Of a stretch of DNA of 64,000 bases, positions 16,685-33,508 are shown one piece after another. The stretch lies in NCBI RefSeq assembly GCF_000383975.1, contig NZ_KB913017.1, positions 2,159,527-2,223,526 on the forward strand, given 5' to 3'. Each line of letters begins with the position of its first letter. The first letter of the stretch is position 1. Below the pieces are notes generated by a model. The model worked only from the letters and a program-made list of their open reading frames with translations. It did not search any database and was not told the origin of the DNA. The stretch is from Natronorubrum tibetense GA33. GTDB taxonomy: Archaea > Halobacteriota > Halobacteria > Halobacteriales > Natrialbaceae. The position numbers were made by a program, and so were the translations under genes.

Positions 16685-17422
16685 CTACGACAGGAGGCTT
16701 CGGACTTTGGCGACGAGCGCGGCCGGACTGAACGGTTTCGTCACGTAGTCCTCAGCTCCGAGATCGAATCCCCTGCGAACGTCCGCCTGCTGACCGCGGG
16801 ATGACAGTACGATGATCGGGACGCCCTCGAGTCGGTCGTCGTTTCGAATCCGGCCGAGCACGCGAAAGCCGTCCAGTCCGGGGACCATGACGTCCAGCAG
16901 CACCAGGTCCGGCGGTTCCCCAGTCGCCAGAAACGACCAACACTCCCGCCCGTCGGCCAGCGCCGTCGTCTCGTAGCCGCTCGACTCGAGTTTATTTTCC
17001 AGCAGCTTCCGAAGCGAGTCGTCGTCCTCGAGGAGCAAGACGTGTGGCCTGTTGGCTGGTCGGTCGGCGGCGGTGTCGGCAGAACGGTCGGCAGTGGTGT
17101 CGGCAGAACGGTCGTCGGCGGTGTCAGCAGTGGTGTCGGCAGAACGGTCAGCGGTGGTGTCGGCAGAACGGTCGGCAGTGGTGTCGGCAGAACGGTCGTC
17201 GGCGGTGTCAGCAGTGGTGTCGGCAGAACGGTCAGCGGTGGTGTCGGCAGAACGGTCGGCAGTGGTGTCGGCAGAACGGTCGTCGGCGGTGTCAGCAGTG
17301 GTGTCGGCAGAACGGTCAGCGGTGGTGTCGGCCGGTTTACTAGCGTCGTCACTCGATCGGTCGGTCGACGTTTCACTCGCGTCGCCGTCGATCCCATCCA
17401 AGCGGTGCTTTGGTGCCGTCAT
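16685..17422 (-). CDS. response regulator with repetitive N-terminal extension
   Basis: A 245-aa protein. Residues about 125-245 are an intact receiver: acidic pair in LLLEDDD, phospho-acceptor Asp in [11 protein letters not shown], and KPFS with the conserved Lys. The N-terminal half is low-complexity Ala/Asp/Thr/Arg/Ser, built from ADTTADRS and [12 protein letters not shown] units in an exact higher-order order. This region is probably disordered and may act as a linker or repeat-length variable tail. No output domain follows the receiver. Start ATG 17422; a longer frame upstream lacks support. Confidence 0.88.
17062..17335. repeat. 84-bp higher-order tandem repeat inside the response regulator gene
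   Basis: About three copies of an 84-bp (28-codon) unit, each composed of 24-, 36- and 24-bp subunits, encode the ADTTADRS / [12 protein letters not shown] / ADTTADRS pattern. The open frames on the opposite strand here are by-products of the repeat. Confidence 0.9.
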
Positions 17423-17712
17423 AGACCGCTCGAAGACACCTCGAGTCGTCCGTCCACGCGTGGACGTGGCCCGCGGCGGAACTCGTTCTCGTCGACGAAC
17501 GCGACAGCGAATCGACTCGTACCGGCGACGACGAGCCACCGGCGAGTTCGGTAGCGTCGGCTCTCCTCGCCGAGACCGCCCCCATCCGGGCGATCAGCAG
17601 TCAGCAGCCCCCAATCCATTCGACCGGACGTTCTGGCCGAACCACTATAGAAGTTGCTCAGCGAGTCGCGCGTGAAAACAAGCAGCCCGCGTTGGAGAAC
17701 AGTCAGCGGGCC

Positions 17713-19939: not shown

Positions 19940-21015
19940 TTACGGCACCTCAAAAATTAGTTCCTGTTGTTCATCTCCGAACTCGAGTTCGAGGATGACG
20001 TGTTCTCCACTAAGCGAAGTGTCGCCGTCGTCGTTCTGGAAGCCGATAATCTCGAGCGCCACTGCTTCACCGCTCTCGATCGGCATCGAATCGTCGACGG
20101 GTTCGGATTCACCAATCTCCCAGAGGTTACCCTGTCCACGTGTATCAATTTCCCCCGCATCGCCATCGTTAAGGAGAGCTTCGGGTTGATTTCCGTTCTG
20201 TATCTCCGTCGCCGAACCGGCTTCGGTAACGGTGATCGCGTCGATAGTCTCGCTATAGTAACAACTGAAACGATTCACACACTGATCGCACAGCCGTCGT
20301 GCGATCAGGTGTGCATTGACTTTCAGTGGCTACTATAGTTTCGGCAGTGTTTGTCAACTCGATTTGTAGACTCGATCCGTCAACTCCCGTGTCGACATCG
20401 TCAACTCGGAACGTCCCTTCATTAGTTTCCTCGTCGTTGTCGGCTCCGTCAAACTCCTCGTCCTCGTCAAGGCAAACAACCGAGAGGTCACGCTCGAGTT
20501 CAACCGTTAGAGGACCGTCGTTTGTTTCGATTTCGATAGTAAAGCCAGTACTCGAACCAACTTGCTCAGCAGTCCACGATCCAAATTCGACGTCCGCGTC
20601 GCAGTTGATGTCAGCGTGAATGTCGACTTCATTGCCACTTTCTGTGAGAGTTATCGTCTCGTCTAAAAGCAATGGATAGTCCTCATTCCCGTTTTGAAGA
20701 GAGACCGATTCTTGGTCGAGTTGTATCTCTTCATCGCGACTCTGATCCGATATTGTTGCGAGGTGCTGGTCTTCGTACTCATACACACCATCAGTACAAA
20801 AACCCCAAAACCGCTGCTGGTACTCGAACGAACCGTCCTCGAGAATGACGTTATCTGGCATATCGATGCCGAGCAACGCGCTTTCCTCGTCGGTGACACC
20901 GACCCCAACGCCTCGGTCGGCAGTCAACGCGCTGAACGAACGCGCCGGTCGAAGCGAGCACTGCCCCAAGCCCAACGAGAACGAGTACAACACCAGCCGT
21001 TTTGAGTACCTTCAT
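19940..21015 (-). pseudogene. secreted DUF1102-like paralogue, frameshifted and split by a MITE
   Basis: The intact form would start at ATG 21015 with the signal sequence MKVLKTAGVVLVLVGLGAV and continue GAF-SALTADRGVGVGV. A four-base duplication (GTTC) at about 20936-20941 shifts the frame right after GAF. An 86-bp inverted-repeat element then interrupts the gene at 20253-20338 and introduces a stop. The remaining coding text resembles the intact paralogue at 25634-26224 (CTDG, LATISDQS versus LLTITDQS, CDAD). The start overlaps the stop of the DUF7344 gene by four bases (ATGA), so they formed an operon. Confidence 0.82.
20253..20338. mobile_element. 86-bp MITE-like inverted-repeat insertion
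   Basis: The ends CTATAGTAACAACTGAAA (20253-20270) and TTTCAGTGGCTACTATAG (20321-20338) are inverted repeats matching at 16 of 18 positions. The interior holds a second inverted repeat, CTGATCGCAC / GTGCGATCAG (20282-20307), giving a long hairpin. It has no coding capacity and sits inside a gene. CTATAG at both ends is itself palindromic, so the exact target duplication cannot be settled. Confidence 0.78.
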
Positions 21016-21548
21016 CGGGGTCGTTCCATCTCGCCGAGGCGCATCCGTCGGGCCTGCACCACGTGGATGACCGCCGAGACTGCAAACAGTGCGAATACCA
21101 GCGTCGCCCAGCCAAGTTCAGGTACCGTTTCGGTTGGTACCACTTCTAGCCACAGTCCGGCCATCACGATCGAACCGACTGCTGCAAGACCGAGATAGTA
21201 TGTTCCCCACGGTACAGAGTCGCCAGGGACGATATCGAGGTAGACGTCTAACTCCGTCGCTTCGTCGGTGAGTTCGATCGTGCGATCGTCGAACTCGATC
21301 ATGTCGGCTCGCTCGAGCGTCGGCAGGTGCGTCTGCTGTAAGGACGTGTAAACCCGCTTTCGCTCCGCGGAAGTGAGTTCCTGCACCTCCTTGTCGAGTT
21401 CCCAGGCAGCGACATGTTCGGCAAGGTCGCCCAGTGTTACTGGTTCGTCCTCGCGCTTGCAGTAGTGGATGGCGTACCGGCGACGGTGGTTACTCAACAG
21501 GTCGAAAATCTCCCCCCTGTTCGAGTCCTTCCCCATCTTGGCTGCCAT
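21012..21548 (-). CDS. DUF7344-type winged-helix membrane protein
   Basis: A 178-aa protein. Residues 10-100 look like the haloarchaeal DUF7344 winged helix (IFDLLSNHRRRYAIHYC, LGDLAEHVAAWE, SAERKRVYTSLQQTHLP, IEFDDRTIELT). Two hydrophobic segments follow (about 116-136 and 143-163) and a basic tail. Such proteins often sit beside secreted and signal-peptidase genes in haloarchaea and are thought to be membrane-attached regulators. Start ATG 21548; an internal ATG at 21536 is also possible. Its stop overlaps the next gene by four bases. Confidence 0.82.
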   Translation of the reverse strand: MAAKMGKDSNRGEIFDLLSNHRRRYAIHYCKREDEPVTLGDLAEHVAAWELDKEVQELTSAERKRVYTSLQQTHLPTLERADMIEFDDRTIELTDEATELDVYLDIVPGDSVPWGTYYLGLAAVGSIVMAGLWLEVVPTETVPELGWATLVFALFAVSAVIHVVQARRMRLGEMERPR

Positions 21549-21739
21549 CGAATACTTGTCTTGTAATGAAACAATGCCTTTCTGATATATAATCCTTCTC
21601 GCCGCAGAGTGGGTGTGTCTGCCTCACATCATGTTACACCCAAATCGACTAGTTGCCGACTCATAGATAGCGAGGAAACCGTCCGTCCAGTAACTGCGTG
21701 ATCGACCGCTCGAGAACAGTTACGTCACAGGCGCGATTA

Positions 21740-22286
21740 TCACGTCTGCCAGTCATCCTCAATACACTTGGTTTCTATACTAATCTTTTCGCCACTGGCC
21801 TCAGCATCGATCGTCACCGTCGCACTACGATGCTGTTGATCGCCACTGCCAAAGGCTCCTGCTGTGAGCACTGAAAATCACCGAGCACAACGCGTGATCC
21901 ATCGTCAGTCGATTCGTGTCTAAGTTCTTTACCACCAACGATATCGTCATTATCAATATCGACTGCAAGTCATGCTCATCGATAGACAAATCACTGGGCG
22001 GTGTATTGTCTTCGAGAACGACGATCGGCATATCGTTATACGTGTACGGCAAATATAAACCAAGGAAACATCCGCCACCACCGTCGGCGTCATTACTATT
22101 TAGTTCGAGCGTTCTATCTTCCGACGGATATTCCAAACTAGGAAACGTATTTTCGTCGCTTGTCGCCTCGACGCCTACCTCTCTCTCTCTCTCCGCGTTA
22201 GACACATCGAAAGCGCCGCTCAAGGCCACAACAACGAATGCACCAACCATGAGAAATCTGATCCGGATCCAAATAATCGTACGCAT
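21740..22286 (-). pseudogene. second decayed DUF1102-like secreted paralogue
   Basis: It starts at ATG 22286 with a signal-like MRTIIWIRIRFLMVGAFVVV and the family's SGAFDVSNAERER, resembling the intact paralogue at 26224 (MRTITYLGL...SGAFDSTLADR). Downstream the coding text moves through three frames. DNDDIVGGKELRHESTDDG is out of frame with the start, and the end GSGDQQHRSATVTIDAEASG...CIEDDWQT lies in yet another frame, stopping at 21740. At least two frameshifts are therefore present. A (CT)n run at about 22181-22194 encodes the ERERE part. Confidence 0.72.
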
Positions 22287-22340
22287 CTATCTACAGTTAC
22301 CGTTTTCTAGGTTATTCGATGGAGGGCGGTACGCCGGGAG

Positions 22341-25300
22341 TTAGCCGATTACGATGTAATCGGTATCGATGTCGATCCCCGTCTCAGTCGACTGATTATC
22401 TCCCGTACTGCCATCGGACTCCCCAGTTCCAACTGAAGGGGAGTTACCTGCACTGGAACTGCCTTCACCGAGGTCGACATCGACGTCACCGACCTCGCCG
22501 ACACCGTCAGAGCCGCCGTGACTCACGTTAGTTTCGTCACCGCCACCGGGTATGATCGTAATACTCGGTGTGTCAGGATTGACGCCTGCACGTTCGACCT
22601 CAACGTAGACGATCAGGTCGTTGAAGTTCGGGTCGTACGTTTGATCGGGGTACTGCTCGTAGGTGTCGATCGCGTCGTCCCAGAGCGCGTCGATTCCCTC
22701 CTCCTCAGTCGAGATCGTGTTTTCGAAGAGGAACACGAACTCACCGGAATCGAGGTCGAGTTCGTCGCCACTCTCCGCGATCAGTCCCTGCTGTTCGAGC
22801 ACCTCTGTCGCGCTCTGCTGTTGGTCGTTACCCGCGGGAAGGGCGGGAATCGTGTTGTTCTCCGCGCTCCGAACTCGGACGTTCTGCAAGTTCTCGCCTT
22901 GCGAGGCGTCAATCGGCCCGAACGCTTCGCCGTGTGGTGCATCGCTACACCACATGAAGTCCCGATCGGTCGGTCCCGAGTAGTGCGGGAGCGTATCCGG
23001 ATCGGTGGACTGAGCTTGGCAAGTGTTGTGCCTCGTGTTCCGCAACGTGAGCTCGATCTCGTCGTCCACCGAGAAATTGTATTGATAACTGTCGTCGCTC
23101 TTGTCCTGCCACGTTGGGCCGGTGTTGATGTTATCTCCGCCGTCAGGGTTCTCGAAGGAGTGCACTGGGTCGTCATCCGCCAATACGTCAAGCGTCATGG
23201 GTGCTAAGTTGTGAACGTCGGGTTGCCACCACCCCCCGTCACCGGACACCTGCGAGCCGAGGACTTCGACGGTCACTTCTGCGTCTTCGACTGCGCCCAG
23301 TCCAACTCGTCCGGGATCGATTCCGGCGTCAACATCGAATTTGACACTGCCCGTGTTGTCATCTGTATGAAGTTTTGCCTCGTACTCCCCATCGATGAGG
23401 TTGCTCTCGTTGAGTTCCAGTTCGACGGTATCCGACTCGCCGAAGGATCGTTCGGTCGTGTTTTCACCGAGATAGCCGTAGGGATCCTCTCCCTCGAGCT
23501 CCTCCGGAAGCTCATCAAGATACTCAAGTTCGAAGCCGATGTCCTGAGAGCCGGATTCGACGCCGAGGTTCGTGATATTGGACGTGACTGTGACGTTCTC
23601 GTCGTCGTGTGTCGCGTTCGTCTCCGAGACCTCGAAGTACGTACCAGAGTTGCCAGCGTAGAACGTGCCGGGCGAGGTCATCGCACTGTCCTCCGTGGAG
23701 ACGTTGTACTCGTACACCGAACCGGCCTCAAAGTCGTCGGTATCGATATCGAACTCAACCGTTTCGGATTCGTTCGACTCGAGCGTCACCGTTTCGGGTT
23801 CGGGTTCGCTACCCGCTTCGCCCGGAAGCGACAGCGCCACGTCCTGCGTTTCGGTGGTGAGATTCGTGTTCGTGACCTCCGTTTCGATCGTAAACGATGA
23901 CTCTGTTACGTCGACGCGTTGATCGCCATTGTCCCCGGTTTCGTCGAGCACGCCGTGATCTGCAGTGACGACGACTCCGTCTCCCTCCTGACCACCGCCG
24001 ATATAGAGGGTCCCGCTTGCGCTGTCGTTTTCAGTTTCGATAGTGAACGGATACGCCCCTCCTGGCCATGCGCTCTCGTTTATCGTCCACTCGACCGTCC
24101 CCTCGGCTCCGTAGTCGAGTTCGAGTTCCTCGTTGACGCCTTCGATGTCGGGGTGATCAAACTCAAGCGAGATATTCTGCGCGTTGGTCCCCGTCGCGTT
24201 CTCGACACCTTGGTTCCAGATGTCCGCACTAATCGTGATGTTTTCGCCGTCTGGTGTCGTTTTGATGTCGTCGTCGGTGACGTTGAAGTGCGTTCCTGGT
24301 TTTCCGAGGTAGAACTCACTGATGTTTTCGCCGTCTGGTGTTGTGTCGAGAAGTCTGGTACCGTCCCCGAGGGTATATTGATATGAGTACGAGTGACCAG
24401 GACTCAGATTGTAGTTTCCAACTCCAACGTTGAAAGATTCCGTGTCAATCTCACCCCCTTCGAGATCGACTTCTTCCGTATCAAGCGATTCACCGTCAAC
24501 TTCGAGTACCAGACTCTGACTGACCGAATCACTGCCAGTGTTCTCCAGAACTGGTCCGAACTGAAGCGGATTATTTTCTTTGAGGCGGTACTCGCCAACC
24601 ATCTGTGATTCGGGGTTTTCGAGGCCAGGGTCCTCATCGAGAACGATCGACGAACTGGATTGTGTTTCCCGAACACCCTCTATATTCGTTTTGACCACTC
24701 CATCAGTGGAGTCGTGAGAAACATTTGTATTTTCGTTGGTTTCAGGATCAAGTGTCGTTTCGAGATGCCGATTCCACCCGTCGTGATAGGAACTCTCGAT
24801 TCGGATCGCGACATTATTTCCATCGGATTCGCTGGCTGCATTGGTGATGTTTTCGGCCAATTCGTCGCTTCGTTCGTGGTCCGCCCGCGCAACAGGATCA
24901 GAACTCGAGAGTTCGTCCTGATCGAGGAGCATAATATTGAATTGGACGGACCTGTTCTCCTCGTCGGACTCGTTATCGTAGCTGATTCCGGGCTCCGAGA
25001 CGATCCGCGTCTCCGAACCGGTGTCCTCCCAGACAGCACCGCCCTGATGCGCGATCGTTCGGTCGTCGAGTTCGAACTCGAGAGCACCGAGCTCCGCGGA
25101 CGCGGTTCGGTTATCCTCGTCCCACGGGATATCATCGGCCTCGCTGTCGTTGTACCAGACGAACTCGATCTGTCCTTCGTCGGCGACATTTATCTCGCAC
25201 TCCGAGATATCGGTCGACGGCATCGATTGCTGCTCGCCAGTCGCGGCGACCGTCGCGAGTTGGTGATCCGTTTCGTCCATACAGAGATGGGCTCGTTCGC

Positions 25301-25466
25301 GCTCGCTCTCCGATTCGAACGCGTCGAGTACCGGCGAACCGATGAGAAACAGCAGTGCCGTTGCTGCAATCACCATCCCTATGAGGAGTACGAGACCGAT
25401 GATGGGGCTGACGCCCCGTTTCTCTCGAGCGCAAGACTCCTGATTTTTCCCACCAGCACCAGTCAT
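22341..25466 (-). CDS. large pilin-like surface protein with repeated beta domains
   Basis: A 1041-aa protein. The N-terminus, basic residues then RGVSPIIGLVLLIGMVIAA (about 16-36), is a class III prepilin-like signal, and the following HLCMDETDHQLATVAATGE resembles haloarchaeal DUF7289-type proteins. From about residue 320 to 720 it carries several repeats of a CARDB-like exoplasmic beta domain (pattern GT.F.V....T.DGEN.T). The C-terminal 100 residues are Gly/Ser/Asp-rich and end DYIVIG. A TATA box 25-35 bp upstream of ATG 25466 supports this start. It is presumably a cell-surface or fibre-associated protein. Confidence 0.8.
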   Translation of the reverse strand: MTGAGGKNQESCAREKRGVSPIIGLVLLIGMVIAATALLFLIGSPVLDAFESESERERAHLCMDETDHQLATVAATGEQQSMPSTDISECEINVADEGQIEFVWYNDSEADDIPWDEDNRTASAELGALEFELDDRTIAHQGGAVWEDTGSETRIVSEPGISYDNESDEENRSVQFNIMLLDQDELSSSDPVARADHERSDELAENITNAASESDGNNVAIRIESSYHDGWNRHLETTLDPETNENTNVSHDSTDGVVKTNIEGVRETQSSSSIVLDEDPGLENPESQMVGEYRLKENNPLQFGPVLENTGSDSVSQSLVLEVDGESLDTEEVDLEGGEIDTESFNVGVGNYNLSPGHSYSYQYTLGDGTRLLDTTPDGENISEFYLGKPGTHFNVTDDDIKTTPDGENITISADIWNQGVENATGTNAQNISLEFDHPDIEGVNEELELDYGAEGTVEWTINESAWPGGAYPFTIETENDSASGTLYIGGGQEGDGVVVTADHGVLDETGDNGDQRVDVTESSFTIETEVTNTNLTTETQDVALSLPGEAGSEPEPETVTLESNESETVEFDIDTDDFEAGSVYEYNVSTEDSAMTSPGTFYAGNSGTYFEVSETNATHDDENVTVTSNITNLGVESGSQDIGFELEYLDELPEELEGEDPYGYLGENTTERSFGESDTVELELNESNLIDGEYEAKLHTDDNTGSVKFDVDAGIDPGRVGLGAVEDAEVTVEVLGSQVSGDGGWWQPDVHNLAPMTLDVLADDDPVHSFENPDGGDNINTGPTWQDKSDDSYQYNFSVDDEIELTLRNTRHNTCQAQSTDPDTLPHYSGPTDRDFMWCSDAPHGEAFGPIDASQGENLQNVRVRSAENNTIPALPAGNDQQQSATEVLEQQGLIAESGDELDLDSGEFVFLFENTISTEEEGIDALWDDAIDTYEQYPDQTYDPNFNDLIVYVEVERAGVNPDTPSITIIPGGGDETNVSHGGSDGVGEVGDVDVDLGEGSSSAGNSPSVGTGESDGSTGDNQSTETGIDIDTDYIVIG

Positions 25467-25490
25467 TGTATCCCACTAATAAGCTATCAC

Positions 25491-25500
25491 TATAAATATA
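25491..25500 (-). promoter_or_regulatory. TATA box of the pilin-like gene
   Basis: The minus strand reads TATATTTATA 25-34 bp upstream of ATG 25466, a strong AT-rich box at leaderless spacing. Confidence 0.65.
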
Positions 25501-25633
25501 TTCAGGAATGTTTACTGGTTGGTGATACCGTCTCTGCACGCTTTGAGAGTGCGATTTCAAGGTGGACTGATGGAACGTGGGTGCAGATATCGATAGGCGA
25601 CGGCCAGACGCTGTCGGATGACGGAATTGATAC

Positions 25634-26224
25634 CTAGTCGGGTTCGGTGACCGTTCCAGCCTCACATTCGACGTCAACTGTCCGGTCGAGGTCGACGGAA
25701 ATCGTTTCGCCGTTCGCCTCGAGTTCGGCCGTAGCGGGTTGCTCATTAACCGGTTGCTCGGCAGTCCCGGATCCCAAAAAGCCCCTACATGCGCTGCCGG
25801 TAATCCCACCGGTACAGTCGGCGTCACATTGGACTGTCCCTTCGACTATGTGCTGATCATCTTTTGAGATCACTTCCACGGAAGTAACTGGCGGGTCACC
25901 GTCGGGAGTGGAAATACCCGCGACGTTTACGTCCTCGAGTTCGGTTTGTGTGCTCTGATCGGTAATGGTCAGTAGTACCTCGTCGTAATTGAAGTGGCCA
26001 TCAAAACAATATGACCCAGAAGAATCGGTGCAAGTGAATTCGCCATCGTCGACCGATAAACTGAGTTCGGACCGGTCGACTCCGACAAGCGCATCCCCGT
26101 CGTCAGCAGTGTCGATACTGACGCCCCGATCGGCGAGCGTCGAATCGAATGCGCCGCTCGAGGCGACGAAAACGAGTGCCCCACAGACGAGCAGTCCCAA
26201 TCCGAGATACGTTATCGTACGCAT
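25634..26224 (-). CDS. secreted Cys-containing DUF1102-like protein (intact)
   Basis: A 196-aa secreted protein, the intact member of a local paralogue set. The signal segment is MRTITYLGLGLLVCGALVFV, followed by the family hallmark SGAFDSTLADRGVSI and an ALVGVD strand. The mature part has paired cysteines (FTCTDSSGSYCFDG, CDADCTGG, SACRG, VECEAG) that could form disulphides. Start ATG 26224, because the longer frame upstream is not signal-like. It lies between the pilin-like gene and the 65-bp element, on the minus strand. Confidence 0.78.
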   Translation of the reverse strand: MRTITYLGLGLLVCGALVFVASSGAFDSTLADRGVSIDTADDGDALVGVDRSELSLSVDDGEFTCTDSSGSYCFDGHFNYDEVLLTITDQSTQTELEDVNVAGISTPDGDPPVTSVEVISKDDQHIVEGTVQCDADCTGGITGSACRGFLGSGTAEQPVNEQPATAELEANGETISVDLDRTVDVECEAGTVTEPD

Positions 26225-26627
26225 GCTACATTCCTTCGAGCAACCGTCCACAGCGGTCAGTTCGACTTCGACCAAAGCAGCGATGATCCAGTGCTAACTC
26301 ACTGATTCCACTCAGTTGCTATCGGGATACATTCTGATTGGTTAATATATGTGCGTTCTGGCCCGGTGAATTCCGTCGGTCCCATCATCCCCGGCGAAAC
26401 GATTTCGAGAACCTTGTTCTGCCTCGAATTTGATCATATCGCCTGCGAGCAGTCAGACACCGATACAGAGGTGTTCAGGACAGTCTTGAACGAGTGTATT
26501 GCACGGCTTTCGGTACTTCTGGCAAGCTAATACAAAGTGGTTAGCGTTTCTAGTATGGGGTAAGGACTGCGTTCCGAACCCGCCTCGAGATGGTGGATAT
26601 CGGCGCGGTTGTACGGAGATCATAACC
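26225..26627. other. intergenic control region between divergent surface genes
   Basis: No gene is supported. It contains one copy of a 65-bp element (26473-26537) that recurs upstream of the gene at 28467. The AT content is higher than in neighbouring coding DNA. Confidence 0.7.
26473..26537 (+). promoter_or_regulatory. 65-bp conserved upstream element, copy 1
   Basis: Begins GTTCAGG, has CTTGAACGAG and GTATTG, then TTCTGG, and ends CTAATACAAAG. Copy 2 at 28218-28282 has exactly the same length and the same blocks. GTTCA...TGAAC at the left end is an inverted repeat. Located 90 bp upstream of the Tat-exported gene at 26628. Confidence 0.75.
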
Positions 26628-27152
26628 ATGAGAATGAATCGACGCAATGTGTTAGTTGGACTGGGTACGATTGTCGCGGGTGGCGGAGCTGCACTCGGGA
26701 CGGGCGCGTTTAGTAGTGTTGAAGCGGAACGAAATGTCGAGATTGAAGTGGCCGGTGACCAGAGCGCAGTGCTCGGTCTTGAAATTACTAACGACACGCT
26801 GAGTGGCGGTGAAAGTGGTGACGGCAGCGATGACCAAATTAAGTTCGATCCCGAAGAAAATCTCAATCAGAACTCAATTACCACATTTGACGATGCGCTC
26901 AAGATTACAAACAACGGTAGTGAGAACGTGAATGTCGATATACACGAGGCAGTTCTTGGTGAGGACTTAGATGATGGTAATAGTCTAGTCACTGATAATG
27001 GTACTGAAACTGGAATGAACTTTATAGACGATAGTAATGATCTAACTGAGCTTTCTGACACTGCAAGTTTAGACATTATATTTGACCTAGATGGTGAAGA
27101 CGACGATAGTGCTATCCCAGATAATATTGTTATTGAAGCGACCACTGAATAG
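26628..27152 (+). CDS. Tat-exported DUF1102/TasA-like protein
   Basis: A 174-aa secreted protein. The signal has twin arginines (MRMNRRNVLVGLGTIVAGGG) and the hallmark GTGAFSSVEAERNV, followed by a small beta-rich domain (LEITNDT, TTFDDALKITNNGSENVNV). This resembles DUF1102 proteins of haloarchaea, compared in recent work to TasA/CalY-type fibre subunits processed by SipW-like peptidases. The last 90 codons are unusually AT-rich for this genome. Start ATG 26628 has a GGAG eight bases upstream; ATG 26634 is also possible. Confidence 0.82.
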   Translation: MRMNRRNVLVGLGTIVAGGGAALGTGAFSSVEAERNVEIEVAGDQSAVLGLEITNDTLSGGESGDGSDDQIKFDPEENLNQNSITTFDDALKITNNGSENVNVDIHEAVLGEDLDDGNSLVTDNGTETGMNFIDDSNDLTELSDTASLDIIFDLDGEDDDSAIPDNIVIEATTE

Positions 27153-27306
27153 ATAAGTTATAACAGTCTGTTATTTTGGACACCAAATACAATCAACTCT
27201 CAAACTATAAACTCCGCATTATATCAGGTGTGGCACAAAACTAACTAATCCTACAACATGAATACAGCTCGCAGAAATAATAAAACTCGAGAACACGTTG
27301 ACTAAT

Positions 27307-28125
27307 ATGAAACGCCGAGCATTCATGGGACTGGGTGCGATGTTGGTCGGCGTCGGTGCGGTATACAGCACCGGCGCGTTCAGTTCCGTCAATGCCGGTC
27401 GCGGAGTTGGAGTCAGTGCTGCGGAGGCAGAAGACGAAGCGCTTCTCGGTATTAAAAATATTAACAGTACGGATGAGCCGGTATTCGAGAATAACACCTC
27501 TTTGCATATGGAGGTCGAACTGACTGATATAGACCCGGACACTACCGTTACGTTCGACCCGTCGGAATTTTCGTTATCGCCTGATGACGAGGAGACTGTT
27601 GCAATAGAAACTGAGGGAGATAGCACGAGTGCTGAAGTGGCGGTCACTGCGACCCTATTTGACGACGGAAACGAAACGGGACAGATAACGCTCCGGCGGG
27701 ATTTTAGTGTTCCACAAGCTGAACAAACCGAACTAACTGGCGACGTGACCAGTACCGGCGGAAGTGGACGGTTCGCGTTCACGCTCACGAACGAAGGCGA
27801 CACCGGAGTGGAGTTGGTAGCGATCGGGATCAGAGAGGCGACCGGTCCGCTCGAGCGCGTCGACGACGGCGATCTATTGCTGGATACAAGCGGAACCGGC
27901 CAAGGCGACCGCGTCGTCGACGATGCTGCTAACGAAATTCCGGTCGACGATGAAACATTCATCTCGTTCGACCCTACACAATCGCTCAGTCCCAGCGGGA
28001 GCCCTGACGACTCTATCGAACTCAGGTTCGACAAGTTCAACGATGATCCGCGGGGCGAGACGGTTACTATCGAGATCGAGTTCCCGGACGGTACCGGTGA
28101 ATACGTGCTCGAGGTTCCGGAGTAG
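27307..28125 (+). CDS. second Tat-exported DUF1102/TasA-like protein
   Basis: A 272-aa secreted protein. The N-terminus is MKRRAFMGLGAMLVGVGAV, with RR and a hydrophobic core, and then STGAFSSVNAGRGVGVS, the family hallmark. The mature part is beta-rich and acidic, with TSTGGSGRFAFTLTNEGDTGVE as a clear Ig-like strand set. It ends in ETVTIEIEFPDGTGEYVLEVP, a typical beta end for this group. The downstream 28126-28466 gap contains the second copy of the 65-bp element. Start ATG 27307 rather than the TTG at 27298. Confidence 0.82.
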   Translation: MKRRAFMGLGAMLVGVGAVYSTGAFSSVNAGRGVGVSAAEAEDEALLGIKNINSTDEPVFENNTSLHMEVELTDIDPDTTVTFDPSEFSLSPDDEETVAIETEGDSTSAEVAVTATLFDDGNETGQITLRRDFSVPQAEQTELTGDVTSTGGSGRFAFTLTNEGDTGVELVAIGIREATGPLERVDDGDLLLDTSGTGQGDRVVDDAANEIPVDDETFISFDPTQSLSPSGSPDDSIELRFDKFNDDPRGETVTIEIEFPDGTGEYVLEVPE

Positions 28126-28466
28126 ATCCAACCGAGTTACTATCAGTGAGCGCAAAAACGGAGTGTCACTGTGTTCTCGAGGTTAGCCACCTTTGTCCCG
28201 ATAGACACTAAAATGACGTTCAGGCCGGACTTGAACGAGAGTATTGGTTACCGTTCGCCGGTTCTGGGACCCTAATACAAAGACCAAAGGGCACTAGGAT
28301 CAGCATACCAGCGTCTACCGCGATGGAAACCGACGATCGCTGATGGAGGGCATGAGAGGACGCGCACCGGCCCAAAAGAGTGGGCGGAACGGGTACAGTC
28401 TTACTCGTTTGCGAAGACTGCCATCGGGCACCCAACTCGATCCGTCAGCGAACGATTGAAGCAAAA
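28126..28466. other. intergenic region with 65-bp element, copy 2
   Basis: No gene is supported. The 65-bp element copy lies at 28218-28282, and the remaining 180 bp before ATG 28467 hold no obvious frame of their own. Confidence 0.7.
28218..28282 (+). promoter_or_regulatory. 65-bp conserved upstream element, copy 2
   Basis: Same 65-bp length and block order as copy 1 (GTTCAGG, CTTGAACGAG, GTATTG, TTCTGG, CTAATACAAAG), but with different connecting bases. This pattern of conserved blocks between drifted spacers argues for selection. Confidence 0.75.
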
Positions 28467-29612
28467 ATGGTATCGACGAAAATCCTACTCACCGCCGCAG
28501 CAGCCTGCTTTCTCCTCGCGCTTGCAGTCCCAACAGTAGCAATTACGGTGGGTGAAGACACGGCATCCGACGATGTCGTCCTCGAGCCAACCTCCCAATA
28601 CGCCTCACTCGACGACAACGACGAACTCCAACTCGACCTCGAGAAACTCAACAACCAGGCACACACCACGTTCGACGACGTCTTCTCGGTAACAGTCAAC
28701 GACAATGCCGTCGAACGGGTCTGGATCGAGAACGACATCCGCGGCCTCGAGTTCTACCAGAATGGAGATCAATCGGACGTACTCGCGGAGTCCACTCCTC
28801 TCGAGCCATCAGCAGGCAAGACGACGAACGTCGGCGTCTCGGTCGACACGACCGAGAGCTACGAGGAGACGGAAACGTTCACAGTCCACGTCGAGTACGA
28901 GGACGAAGAAGTGGAAAACGAGGAGCATCCGGAGGGCGTCGAACTCACGAGCTTCGAGGTCGACCCGACCACGGTCGAAACGGGCGAGAACGTAACCGCA
29001 AACGCGACCTACGAGAACGTCGGTCAAACCACGGAAGAAACGACAGCGCAGCTCACCGTCGACGGCACCGTCGTCGACACGAAAACGCTCGAGATCGAAC
29101 CCGGGGAAAACGAATCAGCCGTCTTCGAGCGACAGATGCAGTGGCCCGGGACGTACGAGGTCGGCGTCGGAAAGGGCGCAAGCGAGACGGTTACCGTCGA
29201 AGGGCCGCCGATCGACGTCCTCGAGGCATCCGTCACTACCACCGACATCACGGCCGGCGACAGGGCAACGATCGAGGCCACAGTGTCGAATCCGACCGAG
29301 CAGCGAGTTCAGCGCACGCTCGAGCTCGCGGTCGACGGTATCGTCGTCGACACGAGGACGGTATCCATCGCGCCGAACGGGGAAACCACAGTTACGTTCG
29401 AGCGGCAGTTCGACGACGCGGAGACGTACGACATCGCGATCAGTGGCGTGGAGGCGGGGTCGGTCACCGTCGCGGAGCGAGAGACCATCACGATTCGGGA
29501 CCGCGAGCTGTCGGCGGCGGCGACGGCTGCCCTCGCGCCGCCGATGGCGATGGGCTTTCTGTTCCTGGGCATCGCCGCGAACCGGCGGTGGGTGTTCGTT
29601 CCGATGCGGTAG
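28467..29612 (+). CDS. secreted DUF1102-CARDB fusion protein with C-terminal anchor
   Basis: A 381-aa exported protein. The signal is MVSTKILLTAAAACFLLAL. Residues about 30-150 form a DUF1102-type domain (LNNQAHTTFDDVFSVTVND matches the TTFDDALKITNN of the 26628 protein). Two CARDB-like domains follow (about 155-245 and 250-345; VETGENVTANATYENVG and ITAGDRATIEATVSNPT). The C-terminus has one hydrophobic helix (LAPPMAMGFLFLGIAA) and a short basic tail, so it is membrane-anchored. It precedes the signal peptidase gene by about 120 bp and is likely its partner. Confidence 0.85.
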   Translation: MVSTKILLTAAAACFLLALAVPTVAITVGEDTASDDVVLEPTSQYASLDDNDELQLDLEKLNNQAHTTFDDVFSVTVNDNAVERVWIENDIRGLEFYQNGDQSDVLAESTPLEPSAGKTTNVGVSVDTTESYEETETFTVHVEYEDEEVENEEHPEGVELTSFEVDPTTVETGENVTANATYENVGQTTEETTAQLTVDGTVVDTKTLEIEPGENESAVFERQMQWPGTYEVGVGKGASETVTVEGPPIDVLEASVTTTDITAGDRATIEATVSNPTEQRVQRTLELAVDGIVVDTRTVSIAPNGETTVTFERQFDDAETYDIAISGVEAGSVTVAERETITIRDRELSAAATAALAPPMAMGFLFLGIAANRRWVFVPMR

Positions 29613-29736
29613 CGAATCGCCGGACGGCGATCCTGTCGGGCCAAACGCCGACTCTCGGGGAGTTTAAGGTGTTTGCTTCCAAAGTGAATCAGTAATCGAA
29701 TAGTCGTCACAGAATGACATTCTCCGAACAAACACG

Positions 29737-30906
29737 ATGACGTCGGCTACACTCCTCAAACGAGGGCTAGGGCTGGCCGTCGCCGTCTGCATCGTCCTCC
29801 TCCTGATTGGGCAACTACTGGGACAGCCGATCCTGCTCGGCTACGTCGCGACAGGCAGTATGGAGCCGACGATGAACGCCGGCGACGGCTTCGTCGCGAT
29901 CCCGAGCGTCGCGACCGGCGATGTCGAGGAAGGAGATATCGTCGTCTTCGAGGCCCGAGAGTTACACGACGGCGAACTGACGACCCATCGCGTGGTCGGC
30001 GAAACCGACGAGGGGTACGTCACCAGAGGGGACGCCAACCCATTTACCGATCAGGACGGCGGCGAACCGCACGTCACGGACGGCCAGATCGTCGCCAAAG
30101 CCTGGCAGGTAAACGGCGAGGCCGTGACGCTTCCGTATCTCGGCACGGCGATCATGGGCGTCCAGGGCGTCGTGGAGTCGGCCTACGGAACGGTCGCATC
30201 GGTGCTCGGACTGACGACGGCAGGCGATTCGGAAGGACTCGGGTCGATGCTGGTCGCCGTCGGCGTCGCCCTGCTCGGCTTCGGGATGCTCCTCGAGCGA
30301 CTCGGCCCCGGGCGACGCGAGACGCACCGTTCGCGCTCCCGCGAGAACGTCATCGCGTTCTGGACGGCGCTGGGGCTCGTTTTGCTCGTCTTCGTCACGT
30401 TCGCGACTGCGGCGATGGTCGTTCCCGCCGGCACCGCCGAGTACGAAGTCGTGAGCACGGATTCGCCGTCCGACGATCCGCAGGTGCTCGCCCCCGGGGA
30501 GACGGCGGAACTCACGCGGACCGTCGACAACGCGGGCTATCTCCCGATCGTGGCCGTCCACGACGCCGCGAGTCGAAATATCGCGGCGGATCCCGGATCC
30601 CAGACGGTTGGGATACGCTCGAGCGGGGAGACGACGGTCTCGCTCACCGCACCCGAAGAGACCGGCGAGTACACGCGACATCTCGGCGAGTACCGATATC
30701 TCGCCGTGCTTCCGCCGTCCGTGATCGTCTGGCTTCACGGGCTGCACCCGCTCGCGGCGATTGCCGCGGTCAACGGCGTCATCGTCGGCGTTACCGTCGC
30801 GGTCGTGCTCGTGGTCTTCGGCTACAACGACCTGCGCGTTCGATCCGCGGGATCGCACGTCTCGCTGTCGACTCGGCTCCACCGAAAACTCCGGGAGTGG
30901 CTGTGA
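29737..30906 (+). CDS. SipW-type signal peptidase I with exoplasmic domain
   Basis: A 389-aa type I signal peptidase of the archaeal/ER (Ser-His) kind. The catalytic Ser41 is in TGSMEPTM and His84 in LTTHRVVGET; YVTRGDANPF is the third family block. After a second hydrophobic helix (about 166-186) there is a third (about 206-230), then an extra 100-residue exoplasmic beta domain (VLAPGETAELTRTVDNAGY) and a last helix near 340-370. SipW-like peptidases process TasA/DUF1102-type proteins in bacteria and probably archaea. Start ATG 29737. Confidence 0.88.
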   Translation: MTSATLLKRGLGLAVAVCIVLLLIGQLLGQPILLGYVATGSMEPTMNAGDGFVAIPSVATGDVEEGDIVVFEARELHDGELTTHRVVGETDEGYVTRGDANPFTDQDGGEPHVTDGQIVAKAWQVNGEAVTLPYLGTAIMGVQGVVESAYGTVASVLGLTTAGDSEGLGSMLVAVGVALLGFGMLLERLGPGRRETHRSRSRENVIAFWTALGLVLLVFVTFATAAMVVPAGTAEYEVVSTDSPSDDPQVLAPGETAELTRTVDNAGYLPIVAVHDAASRNIAADPGSQTVGIRSSGETTVSLTAPEETGEYTRHLGEYRYLAVLPPSVIVWLHGLHPLAAIAAVNGVIVGVTVAVVLVVFGYNDLRVRSAGSHVSLSTRLHRKLREWL

Positions 30907-30990
30907 GAGGGCGTAACACGGGCGTGTGGCCAGTAAATTAAAATAGACGCCATCGTCAGCCAGTATCGTTATAATGGTTGCCTCGCATGA

Positions 30991-32265
30991 ATGTACGCAT
31001 ACGCGTCTTCCGATCAGTCCGGGAACGGATCGAATCGGCCGGTGCGGGGAACGGACGCCAGCGGAACTGGCTCCGGGGGAATCTACACTGTGATCGATAA
31101 TCCGCGTCTCGACCTGCTGTTCGCCGAATACGGTCGTCTGATCGTGATCGCGCTGGTCATTGTCGGCGCGCTCGCGCTCGTCGCTACCGGCTGGGCCGTC
31201 GCGAACCCGTCGACGACGACCGAGACGCAGTACGGCGAAGAACGCGTCTCGAGCGACTTGCAGACGAGCGCCGTCGTTGTCCAGGACGGACCCCTCTGGA
31301 ACGAGGGCGATCGACTCGAGAACAGCGAGGTCTACATGCTGAACGCCTCGCCGGAACTGACGCTTGAGGCCGAGACCGAACTGCGAAACGAGAGCGACGG
31401 GACGCCGATCAACGGCGGCGAAGTGAGCCACGAACTCGAGGTGCGGTACGAAGCGACTCGAAACGACCAGTCGTTCTGGAACGAGAGCCACACCGTGATC
31501 GACGGTTCGCCGGCGCTCGAGGACGGCGTCGCAACGTCCGAAACGACGGTCGACGTCGAGTCGTACCGCGACCGGCAGCAGGAACTCGAGAGCGAACTGA
31601 CCGGTGTCGGCGACGTCGACATGGCGTTCGTTCTCCACGTCGAGTACGACACTGGGACCAATCAGGGTACCCAGCGCGAGTCGACCACGTTTCGCGTGAC
31701 CGACACCGCCTACTGGCTCGAGGAGTCGGTGTCCGCGTCCGACACGCACACGCACCGGACGGGAACGCTAGAGACGACCGAGTCACAGAATCTCGCGGCT
31801 ATCGCGGGGCTCTCGCTGCTCGGTACGCTTTCGCTCGCGGCCGGTGCGTTCGTCGCCAGGCGATCGCCAATCGACGAGGACGCTGCCCGGCGTGCGGTCC
31901 ACGAACGGCGTTACGCCGAGTGGATTTCGCGCGGCTCGATTCCGATGTGGATCGGCGACTATCACGTTTCGCTCGACACCTTGGAGGACGTCGTCGACGT
32001 CGCGATCGACACGAACGAGCGCGTCGTTCACGACACGCAACGCGGCCTGTTCGCCGTCGTCAACGACGGCGTCGTCTACTACTACAGCGAACGCGGACTC
32101 TGGGAGGAGACCGCCTGGCCGGAGATGAATTTAGAGGAACAGCCGGCGGTCGTCGACGGCGAGCCGGCACTTTCCCCCGACGAGATGGAACTCCAGGGCA
32201 ACGAGGAGTTCGCTGATCCCGACGACGGGTTCGACGACGACGAGGACGTCTGGCAGAAGCTGTGA
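30991..32265 (+). CDS. DUF5305 family membrane protein
   Basis: A 424-aa protein. An N-terminal segment of about 45 residues precedes a first membrane helix (about 49-71). A large exoplasmic beta domain with the DUF5305 feature RLENSEVYMLNASPELTLEAE follows (residues about 80-265). A second helix (269-288) and a cytoplasmic tail end the protein. DUF5305 genes accompany SipW-type peptidase genes in haloarchaea, which supports a shared export or assembly function. Its stop is immediately followed by the TnpB element's distal end. Confidence 0.85.
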   Translation: MYAYASSDQSGNGSNRPVRGTDASGTGSGGIYTVIDNPRLDLLFAEYGRLIVIALVIVGALALVATGWAVANPSTTTETQYGEERVSSDLQTSAVVVQDGPLWNEGDRLENSEVYMLNASPELTLEAETELRNESDGTPINGGEVSHELEVRYEATRNDQSFWNESHTVIDGSPALEDGVATSETTVDVESYRDRQQELESELTGVGDVDMAFVLHVEYDTGTNQGTQRESTTFRVTDTAYWLEESVSASDTHTHRTGTLETTESQNLAAIAGLSLLGTLSLAAGAFVARRSPIDEDAARRAVHERRYAEWISRGSIPMWIGDYHVSLDTLEDVVDVAIDTNERVVHDTQRGLFAVVNDGVVYYYSERGLWEETAWPEMNLEEQPAVVDGEPALSPDEMELQGNEEFADPDDGFDDDEDVWQKL

Positions 32266-32330
32266 CTTCCTCCCCACTCTACTCGCTCACGGCTGACGCC
32301 GTTTGCTCCTTGAGGGTGGGGCTTCCTGTT
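32266..32330 (-). ncRNA. putative TnpB reRNA/omegaRNA 3' end and element right end
   Basis: Overlapping the 3' end of tnpB, a structured segment contains an inner perfect hairpin (ACGGC/GCCGT, 32289-32302) inside a stem formed by 32272-32277 and 32316-32321 (GTGGGG/CCCCAC). TnpB guide RNAs come from exactly this place, the end of tnpB and the right end of the element. The boundaries are approximate, and no RNA evidence is available. Confidence 0.45.
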
Positions 32331-33508
32331 TCGATGACGCGCTTTGCAGGAACCGAATCGGTTCCCGTAGGGAGCGCAGTCTCCGCAGGCGTTGATTCGG
32401 GACAGTCCATCCCTACTTGATTCAGACCGCGTACCAAGATGTTGTAGGCCGCGTTCCAGTCCCTGTCTGCCGTGAAGCCGCACGACGGACACGAGTGTTC
32501 GCGGACCCATAGCGGTTTGTTCGACTCGGCACCGCAGGCTGCACACTCTTTGGTCGTTCCGGTCGGATCGACAGCAACGAAGTGCGTACCTTCGCGTTCG
32601 CACTTGTATCCGAGCATTCGCAGGAACGTTCCCCACGCCGCTCCGGCGCGGTTGCGGCTGTTCGACGGGAGTTCCATCAATCCCTTGGCGTCGAGGTCTT
32701 CGACCGCCACAAGGTCGTACTCTCGAGCGTAGTGGTTCGAAAGCTTGTGCAAGAAGTCCCGACGCTTTCGCATCAGGTCGGCGTAACGTTTGGCGACTAC
32801 TCGCTGTTGCTTGCGGTAGTTCGCCGATCCGTGCTCTTTCCGAGAGAGTTTCCGTTGCTCTCGTTCCAGCCGTTCGCGTTCGTCGGAAAGGTCCGGTGAC
32901 TCGACGGCTGTTCCGTCGCTGTCGTGGGCGTACTTCAGGAGACCCACGTCGATTCCGACACAGTTCTTGAGTGTCTTGGGCTTCGGCGGCGCGTCGTCTT
33001 TGGTTTCGATCCCGAGAACAGCGAACCACTCGCCGGTCGGTTCCTGCTTGACGACGACCTCTTTGATCGTGGCGTCGTCGGGAACGTTGCGGTGGTAGAC
33101 CATCGGAATATCGCCAATTTTGGAAAGAGAAAGTACAGTGCGGCCACTCGTGTTGTTGAGTTCGAAGCCGGTTTGACTGTACTTGACCGAACGATATTCC
33201 TGTGGGCCTTTCCACTTGAGTTCGCCGACGCGGTGGCCGTTGTCCTTCCGACCTTTCAGCGTCGAGAGGTTGTCGTACAGTCGTTGTACGACCTTCTGCA
33301 ACACCTTCGAGTGGACTTGTTTCAGGTCGGTCCACTCGCGTTTGAGGTCAGGAAGGACCGACTGTTCGGAGTACGCCGATGTGTCGTCCTCTCGGTTGAG
33401 CCGGTGCAGGAAGTGGTTGTAGAGCTGTCGGCAGGTATCGACAGTCCACGCTAACCGGTCGAGGAGTTCGTCGGTTGGGTTGAGCCGATACCTGTAGTTG
33501 TAGCGCAT
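32279..33508 (-). CDS. tnpB: TnpB, RNA-guided nuclease of IS200/IS605-type element
   Basis: A 409-aa TnpB (OrfB_IS605), a transposon-encoded RNA-guided endonuclease. The RuvC residues are kept: Asp187 in VGIDVGLLKYA, Glu270 in AVEDLDAKG and the DRDWNAAYN block near 348-356. The zinc ribbon cysteines are 322/325 (CAAC) and 340/343 (CPSC). All domains appear intact, so the protein may be active. No TnpA transposase is next to it; the element is a TnpB-only (IS1341-like) type. It is preceded by a DUF2080 gene three bases upstream. Confidence 0.95.
   Translation of the reverse strand: MRYNYRYRLNPTDELLDRLAWTVDTCRQLYNHFLHRLNREDDTSAYSEQSVLPDLKREWTDLKQVHSKVLQKVVQRLYDNLSTLKGRKDNGHRVGELKWKGPQEYRSVKYSQTGFELNNTSGRTVLSLSKIGDIPMVYHRNVPDDATIKEVVVKQEPTGEWFAVLGIETKDDAPPKPKTLKNCVGIDVGLLKYAHDSDGTAVESPDLSDERERLEREQRKLSRKEHGSANYRKQQRVVAKRYADLMRKRRDFLHKLSNHYAREYDLVAVEDLDAKGLMELPSNSRNRAGAAWGTFLRMLGYKCEREGTHFVAVDPTGTTKECAACGAESNKPLWVREHSCPSCGFTADRDWNAAYNILVRGLNQVGMDCPESTPAETALPTGTDSVPAKRVIETGSPTLKEQTASAVSE

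Follow-up and report, generated by a model that had tools for sequence, protein, structure and literature searches.

Gene content and conservation of the locus

The stretch analysed here, called the window, comprises 64,000 nucleotides of the 4.93 Mb haloarchaeal genome of Natronorubrum tibetense GA33. The subject of this study is the gene cluster at positions 19,940 to 32,265 of the window, which most probably builds a Tat-fimbria (taf, Tafi pilus; Tat, twin-arginine translocation), a thin fibre on the cell surface that is known from related species, where its structure has been solved. Its genes form two divergent sets on either side of the intergenic region 26224-26628. The plus-strand set holds the genes at 26628, 27307, 28470 (anchor), 29737 (peptidase) and 30991-32265 (DUF5305), the minus-strand set those at 25634-26224, 22341-25466, 21825-22286 and 21012-21548 (DUF7344) and a broken gene at 19940-21015. 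All open reading frames (ORFs) listed in the original prediction, which had been made from the letters alone, were located at their positions in an ORF check. The features of the plus strand are the following:

26473..26537, plus strand: conserved upstream box GTTCAGGACAGTCTTGAAC...CTAATACAAAG with a palindromic core, putative operator/promoter of the pilin gene
26628..27152, plus strand: pilin/fimbrillin that corresponds in position to the Tafi pilus subunit and carries the Tat signal MRMNRRNVLVGLGTIVAGGGAALGTGAF, supported by its match to 9P0A and its TafE and TafA scores
27307..28125, plus strand: second Tat-signal fimbrillin-type protein, 272 amino acids (aa)
28218..28282, plus strand: second copy of the upstream box (74%), 65 nt, before the anchor gene
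28470..29612, plus strand: membrane anchor/base protein, fimbrillin-like at its N-terminus, with CARDB-like repeats and a hydrophobic segment at the C-terminus
29737..30906, plus strand: SipW-type (Ser41/His84, archaeal/endoplasmic reticulum type) signal peptidase, TIGR02228 59 bits, over the cut-off
30991..32265, plus strand: DUF5305 membrane protein (PF17231, E 8e-46), conserved last gene of the operon

On one side the locus is flanked by the genes for ABCE1/RLI and EMC6, on the other by a TnpB element followed by genes for a helix-turn-helix (HTH) protein, a small membrane protein and NadE, the latter named from its sequence. The gene order between these flanks is kept in most of the 20 relatives examined, and also in most of the named ones, which belong to Natronorubrum, Natrinema, Natronolimnohabitans and Salinadaptatus. 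The same-genus genomes compared include Natronorubrum texcoconense, N. bangense, N. sulfidifaciens and N. halalkaliphilum, and the peptidase of N. texcoconense is 95% identical to that of the window. The gene set is thus real and far from chance, and an ordered locus recurs throughout the Natrialbaceae between ABCE1-EMC6 and HTH-NadE. In Natrialba the core operon lies at another position, in Natrialba magadii on the plasmid pNMAG01, where no pilus is named. For a match in Haloferax mediterranei no useful gene context was obtained, and a scan for bacterial-type promoters and terminators gave no signal above chance.

The 26628 protein and the Tafi pilus

When the 26628 protein was compared with the sequences of the PDB, a single chain was matched, 9p0a_C 'Pilin' (phmmer E 1.6e-21), and a profile built from 31 sequences of the 26628 family (A1) reached 9P0A at E 9e-42. 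In Foldseek this entry, released in July 2025, carries the title 'Structure of Natrinema sp. J7-2 Tafi pilus'. Tat-fimbriae ('tafi') are reported in PMC12687288, which cites Galeva et al. (iScience 2025), to be haloarchaeal filaments that are exported by Tat and have TafA as core component. The decisive point for the Tafi identity is a genomic one: over the 212 residues compared, a gene of Natrinema gari shows 100% identity to the 9P0A sequence, and in the same RLI...NadE locus it immediately precedes the genes for the anchor, the peptidase and DUF5305. We give a probability of roughly 0.88 to the reading that the locus builds a Tat-fimbria. The original prediction was largely right in its functional idea, that the cluster serves an extracellular fibre and supplies its subunits, an anchor and a SipW-type peptidase of its own: the solved Tafi pilin and the 26628 protein are homologous and occupy the same position in the locus.

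The fold search points in the same direction. With the predicted model of the 26628 protein as query 9P0A was ranked first (E 0.009), the archaeal bundling pilus AbpA (7UEG) second (E 0.018) and the Sulfolobus thread 7PNB fifth, which supports the Tafi identity of the modelled protein without proving it. Among the NCBIfam models, TafE gave 110 bits (cut-off 155; E 7e-32) and the N-terminus of TafA 62 bits, also under its cut-off. Elsewhere the models are exceeded: TafA is over its cut-off (214 bits) at the same locus in Salinadaptatus (G020/L112), and TafA, TafE and TafC are over their cut-offs together in genomes of two other haloarchaeal families (G040 and G055). There, homologues of the DUF7344 regulator (53-54% identical; L120/L121) and of the peptidase (39% identical) lie alongside.

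Several points weigh against this assignment. None of the Taf models (TafA/TafC/TafE, NCBIfam NF052520-52522) reaches its curated cut-off in the window. The Foldseek matches are individually weak, none being below E 0.001, with low template modelling scores and a model of mean predicted local distance difference test (pLDDT) 70. The peptidase is paired with its putative substrates only through genomic linkage and the cleavage-site motif, and the ranking of the 26628 and 27307 proteins as major and minor subunit would follow from their position. The sub-threshold TafE score of the 26628 protein does not exclude its membership, because the solved pilin of 9P0A itself scores only 77 bits with this model, whose cut-off thus leaves out a known member.

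Compared with the Natrinema sp. J7-2 system, the subunit is homologous over its length and the anchor, SipW-type peptidase, DUF5305 and DUF7344 genes are syntenic, whereas the mature domain in the window is strongly diverged, its operon has a second Tat-signal subunit (27307) and extra secreted proteins are encoded on the minus strand, one of them by a pseudogene. With the Tat-fimbriae defined by TafA/TafC/TafE the locus shares Tat-type signals, the fimbrillin/adapter families and, next to one another, a DUF7344 regulator and a SipW-type peptidase; it differs from the over-cut-off clusters of G040 and G055 in gene order and in the lower scores of its proteins. In the G040 cluster the C-terminal half of the TafC protein (L121 8687-9973) reads like a LamG/lectin-type domain, which suggests a putative adhesin tip there.

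The SipW-type signal peptidase

In the 29737 peptidase, S41 in GSMEP and H84 in THRV, read from the sequence, stand in place of a Ser/Lys pair; together with the TIGR02228 score they bear out the SipW-type Ser41/His84 enzyme that had been foreseen. With the NCBIfam SipW model NF046067, an equivalog of the Bacillales, the protein reached 35 of 190 bits, short of the cut-off. Across 61 genomes, a TafE-type gene was found at most 8 kb from 65 of the 73 homologous peptidase genes. Both genes occur in 46 of these genomes, neither in 12, the peptidase only in 3 and the TafE-type gene only in 0. The genome of N. tibetense has one further TIGR02228 peptidase elsewhere, and the two enzymes are consistent with a housekeeping one plus a dedicated one of the locus.

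At 389 aa the 29737 peptidase is about twice the size of the Bacillus enzyme, having an extra membrane-bound C-terminal half with an extracellular-looking segment and further hydrophobic stretches.

Constant signal and apparently exchanged mature domain

The two secreted proteins with twin arginines (RR) and GAFSSVxAxR signals that had been described were found at 26628 and 27307; as read from the sequence, each has the RR motif, and its hydrophobic core ends in GAF. In 31 aligned proteins of the family R5 is invariant and R6 is kept in at least 90%, and G26-A27-F28, A33 and R35 are invariant. Over 18 syntenic loci the 26-residue signal has a mean identity of 92% and the mature remainder one of 26%. 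Each degenerate codon among the invariant ones of the signal shows synonymous variation, and where two sequences share an identical signal, 38% of their third positions are different. Because of this synonymous variation the signal appears to be held by selection on the protein and not by recent copying; gene conversion as the cause of the constant signal is not favoured on the same grounds.

Against N. texcoconense the DNA similarity of about 84-91% ends at 26732, just past the signal, and returns at 28466, at the anchor gene. The stretch in between (26733-28465), which holds the mature pilin domain and the 27307 gene, has no DNA similarity to this nearest relative, and the same break was seen against another Natronorubrum. 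In six pairs of loci with peptidases at least 90% identical, the mature pilins were either 89-91% or 28-42% identical; this is a small sample, compared by whole-ORF alignment with one genome per species. From these alignments the change of the mature pilin between near relatives looks like wholesale replacement and not drift.

A tentative extension, which we regard as doubtful, is that the Tafi locus is a modular, antigen-switching fibre. An almost invariant Tat signal and GAF site, recognised by the dedicated SipW-type peptidase, would be kept while the entire mature subunit and neighbouring subunit genes are swapped among near relatives, possibly through pressure by viruses or grazing. Subunits that Tat exports in the folded state would be self-complemented until the peptidase frees the N-terminal donor strand, so that cleavage would be the trigger of assembly.

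Upstream box, second subunit and anchor

The box upstream of the pilin gene reads GTTCArGaCnGnCTTGAAC, followed about 40 nt on by AATACAAAG, and stands about 165 nt before the RR codons of the pilin in the window and 12 relatives. It is a candidate operator. The second copy was seen only in the window and is possibly the relic of a lost subunit gene.

The 27307 protein is probably a minor or tip subunit. Its N-terminus gave 41 bits with TafE, the A1 profile detects it at E 1.5e-15, and a further profile (A2) reaches the 9P0A N-terminus at E 0.002. The structure model, with a pLDDT of 44, is too poor for a conclusion on the fold. In the nearest relative the gene is absent from its slot.

The 28470 anchor, syntenic in nearly all relatives, matches the A1 fimbrillin profile over part of its N-terminal region (E 4e-9), and its C-terminal hydrophobic segment was read from the sequence. 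In Natrialba magadii the homologue bears the annotation 'CARDB domain-containing protein'. The anchor had been described as a DUF1102-CARDB protein; its CARDB-like repeats and hydrophobic C-terminus are confirmed, and in place of DUF1102 it has a fimbrillin-like N-terminus. The DUF1102 label was likewise dropped for the other secreted proteins, none of which matched PF06510 at E up to 1. A genome-wide search for DUF1102 also gave no match, but the controls gave none either, so that absence is not proven. The DUF5305 assignment, by contrast, held.

Minus-strand genes and mobile elements

The features of the minus strand are the following:

25634..26224, minus strand: secreted TafC-like/fimbrillin-type protein with a signal without RR (SSGAFDSTLADR)
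22341..25466, minus strand: 1041-aa type IV pilin-like surface protein with the class III signal KRGVSPIIG
21825..22286, minus strand: small secreted protein with a GAFDVSNAER signal, no RR
21012..21548, minus strand: DUF7344 winged-helix regulator (PF24035, E 5e-30) with two hydrophobic segments at its C-terminal end
19940..21015, minus strand: pseudogene of a secreted subunit-type protein with a Sec-type signal, no RR
20253..20338, no strand assigned: palindromic element of 86 bp resembling a miniature inverted-repeat transposable element (MITE), with 18-bp terminal inverted repeats (89%), inside the pseudogene

The product of 25634-26224 scored 27 bits with TafC and 20 bits with TafE, both far under the cut-offs, and is detected by the A1 profile at E 3e-9. 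The 1041-aa protein, present in many but not all relatives, reached 27 bits with the archaellin/pilin N-terminus model TIGR02537, over its cut-off, and matches DUF7289 (E 5e-19). From its signal it is predicted to be a substrate of a PibD-type peptidase and not of SipW. A large pilin-like protein had been expected here, and it is indeed type IV pilin-like; it is in its signal, also of the type IV pilin kind, that it departs from the earlier account. The 21825-22286 gene is possibly decayed; its counterpart in N. texcoconense (L031) is longer and only 45% identical. The DUF7344 regulator, rightly named in the original prediction, is kept at the same position in relatives.

The region 19940-20993, taken before for an intact subunit gene, proved to be a pseudogene with a frame break and the MITE-like insert. 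Its start codon (ATG 21015-21013) overlaps the stop of the regulator gene, and the frames of the start side and the body are out of register at an apparent 4-bp GTTC duplication (GTTCGTTC, 20934-20941). The body is truncated by the palindromic insert; the A1 profile still detects the pseudogene (E 2e-5). The 86-bp element gave 44 matches in the genome, a few of which are the same place on both strands, corresponding to about 40 copies. Further copies lie in the loci of related genomes (L034, L035).

The TnpB gene (32279-33508, minus strand) lies with a small upstream ORF inside the segment 32266-33860, in which no TnpA was seen. In N. texcoconense (L031) this segment is absent, and the two flanks are about 20 bp apart. 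From the alignment it looks like a clean insertion of the IS200/IS605 type directly behind the DUF5305 stop codon. Further upstream in the window, a response-regulator-like ORF (16685-17539) has a long repeated stretch ahead of its receiver domain.

Alternative explanations

The locus had been proposed to be a haloarchaeal version of the Bacillus TapA/SipW/TasA biofilm-matrix operon. That its subunits are true members of the TasA (Peptidase_M73) family we consider improbable. Such a reading would account for the SipW-like Ser/His peptidase (35 bits), for the GAF signal junctions, in which Phe recalls the TasA cut site (mature AFND), and for the second rank in Foldseek of AbpA, which is described as TasA-like. 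However, no member of Peptidase_M73 (PF12389) was found in the genome by a search whose B. subtilis control was positive, the PDB profile search returned no TasA chain at E up to 10, and hhalign against TasA gave a probability of 0.9%; the TasA query sequence matches 8AUR over the mature residues 28-261. TasA is also missing from the best 50 Foldseek hits of the 26628 model, and export is predicted to be by Tat, not Sec. Homology to TasA is thus not supported at the sequence level by any of the three sequence tests. In the structural comparison with TasA and AbpA asked of the 26628 protein, AbpA came out as a weak second match, and no TasA stood among the 50 hits listed. The weak AbpA match of the model suggests a kinship with TasA at the level of the fold, and it is plausible that the locus works like TasA/AbpA.

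With B. subtilis tapA-sipW-tasA the locus shares the operon logic of a fibre subunit, an anchor/nucleator and a SipW-type Ser/His peptidase, as well as the Phe next to the cut site. It differs in that no sequence homology was found, in its predicted Tat export and in its anchor, which is of the fimbrillin-CARDB type. AbpA (7UEG) and the Sulfolobus threads (7PNB) are likewise beta-rich extracellular filament subunits, but have no detectable sequence similarity to the window, and the Tat route has no counterpart in their descriptions examined.

Very improbable is a type IV pilus made of the 1041-aa class III signal protein, with the other genes as accessories. The N-terminal signature of this protein is over the TIGR02537 cut-off, but within the housekeeping flanks no gene for an assembly ATPase or platform of the PilB/PilC type was recognised, several syntenic loci lack the protein, and it is far larger than a pilin subunit. 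The least credible reading, in which the genes encode general secreted surface proteins, with an ordinary signal peptidase nearby and no filament, would suit the variable subunits, several of them without a database family, but the Natrinema counterpart at the same position is a solved pilus, and the peptidase is additional to the second TIGR02228 enzyme and tracks the TafE-type genes.

Proposed assembly and implications

For the Tat-fimbria the following assembly can be proposed. Control of the divergent operons probably lies with the DUF7344 regulator, which may act via the palindromic box upstream of the pilin. From the signal motifs of the pilin 26628 and the second subunit 27307, export by the Tat pathway is predicted, a point in which this reading departs from the original account. 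The membrane-bound SipW-type peptidase of the operon would then cut at the invariant GAF junction, so that the mature protein would start at or next to the phenylalanine. The 9P0A model chain has 188 residues and its precursor 215; the difference of 27 agrees with a cleavage immediately ahead of F28. According to PMC10269814, TasA carries Phe at P2' and depends on the dedicated archaeal-like peptidase SipW, and the mature TasA sequence compared begins with AFND; this also fits a cut by the peptidase at the GAF junction.

The beta-rich mature subunits would polymerise on the surface, each probably giving its N-terminal strand to its neighbour, in the manner of AbpA and TasA. In TasA the N-terminal strand completes the next subunit (PMC9674648), and donor-strand complementation is described for the assembly of AbpA and the threads (PMC9715654). 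By its domains the fimbrillin-CARDB membrane anchor would form the base of the fibre, and the fimbrillin profile match near its N-terminus suggests that it may offer the first acceptor or donor site at the membrane. Accessory or tip components may be supplied by the DUF5305 protein and by the secreted proteins of the minus strand. The exposed mature domain would diversify by replacement, with the signal held constant by selection.

The system itself is known and already structurally solved; new are the constant signal with its apparently exchanged mature part and the upstream palindromic box. With the present assignment an unannotated Natronorubrum locus is placed into a recently described class of archaeal fibres, and the linkage in 65 of 73 cases strengthens the tie between Tat-fimbriae and a dedicated SipW-type signal peptidase. 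How donor-strand filaments are built from proteins that are exported folded becomes a testable question, and a constant signal joined to an exchanged mature domain is the pattern expected of a surface antigen under diversifying pressure.

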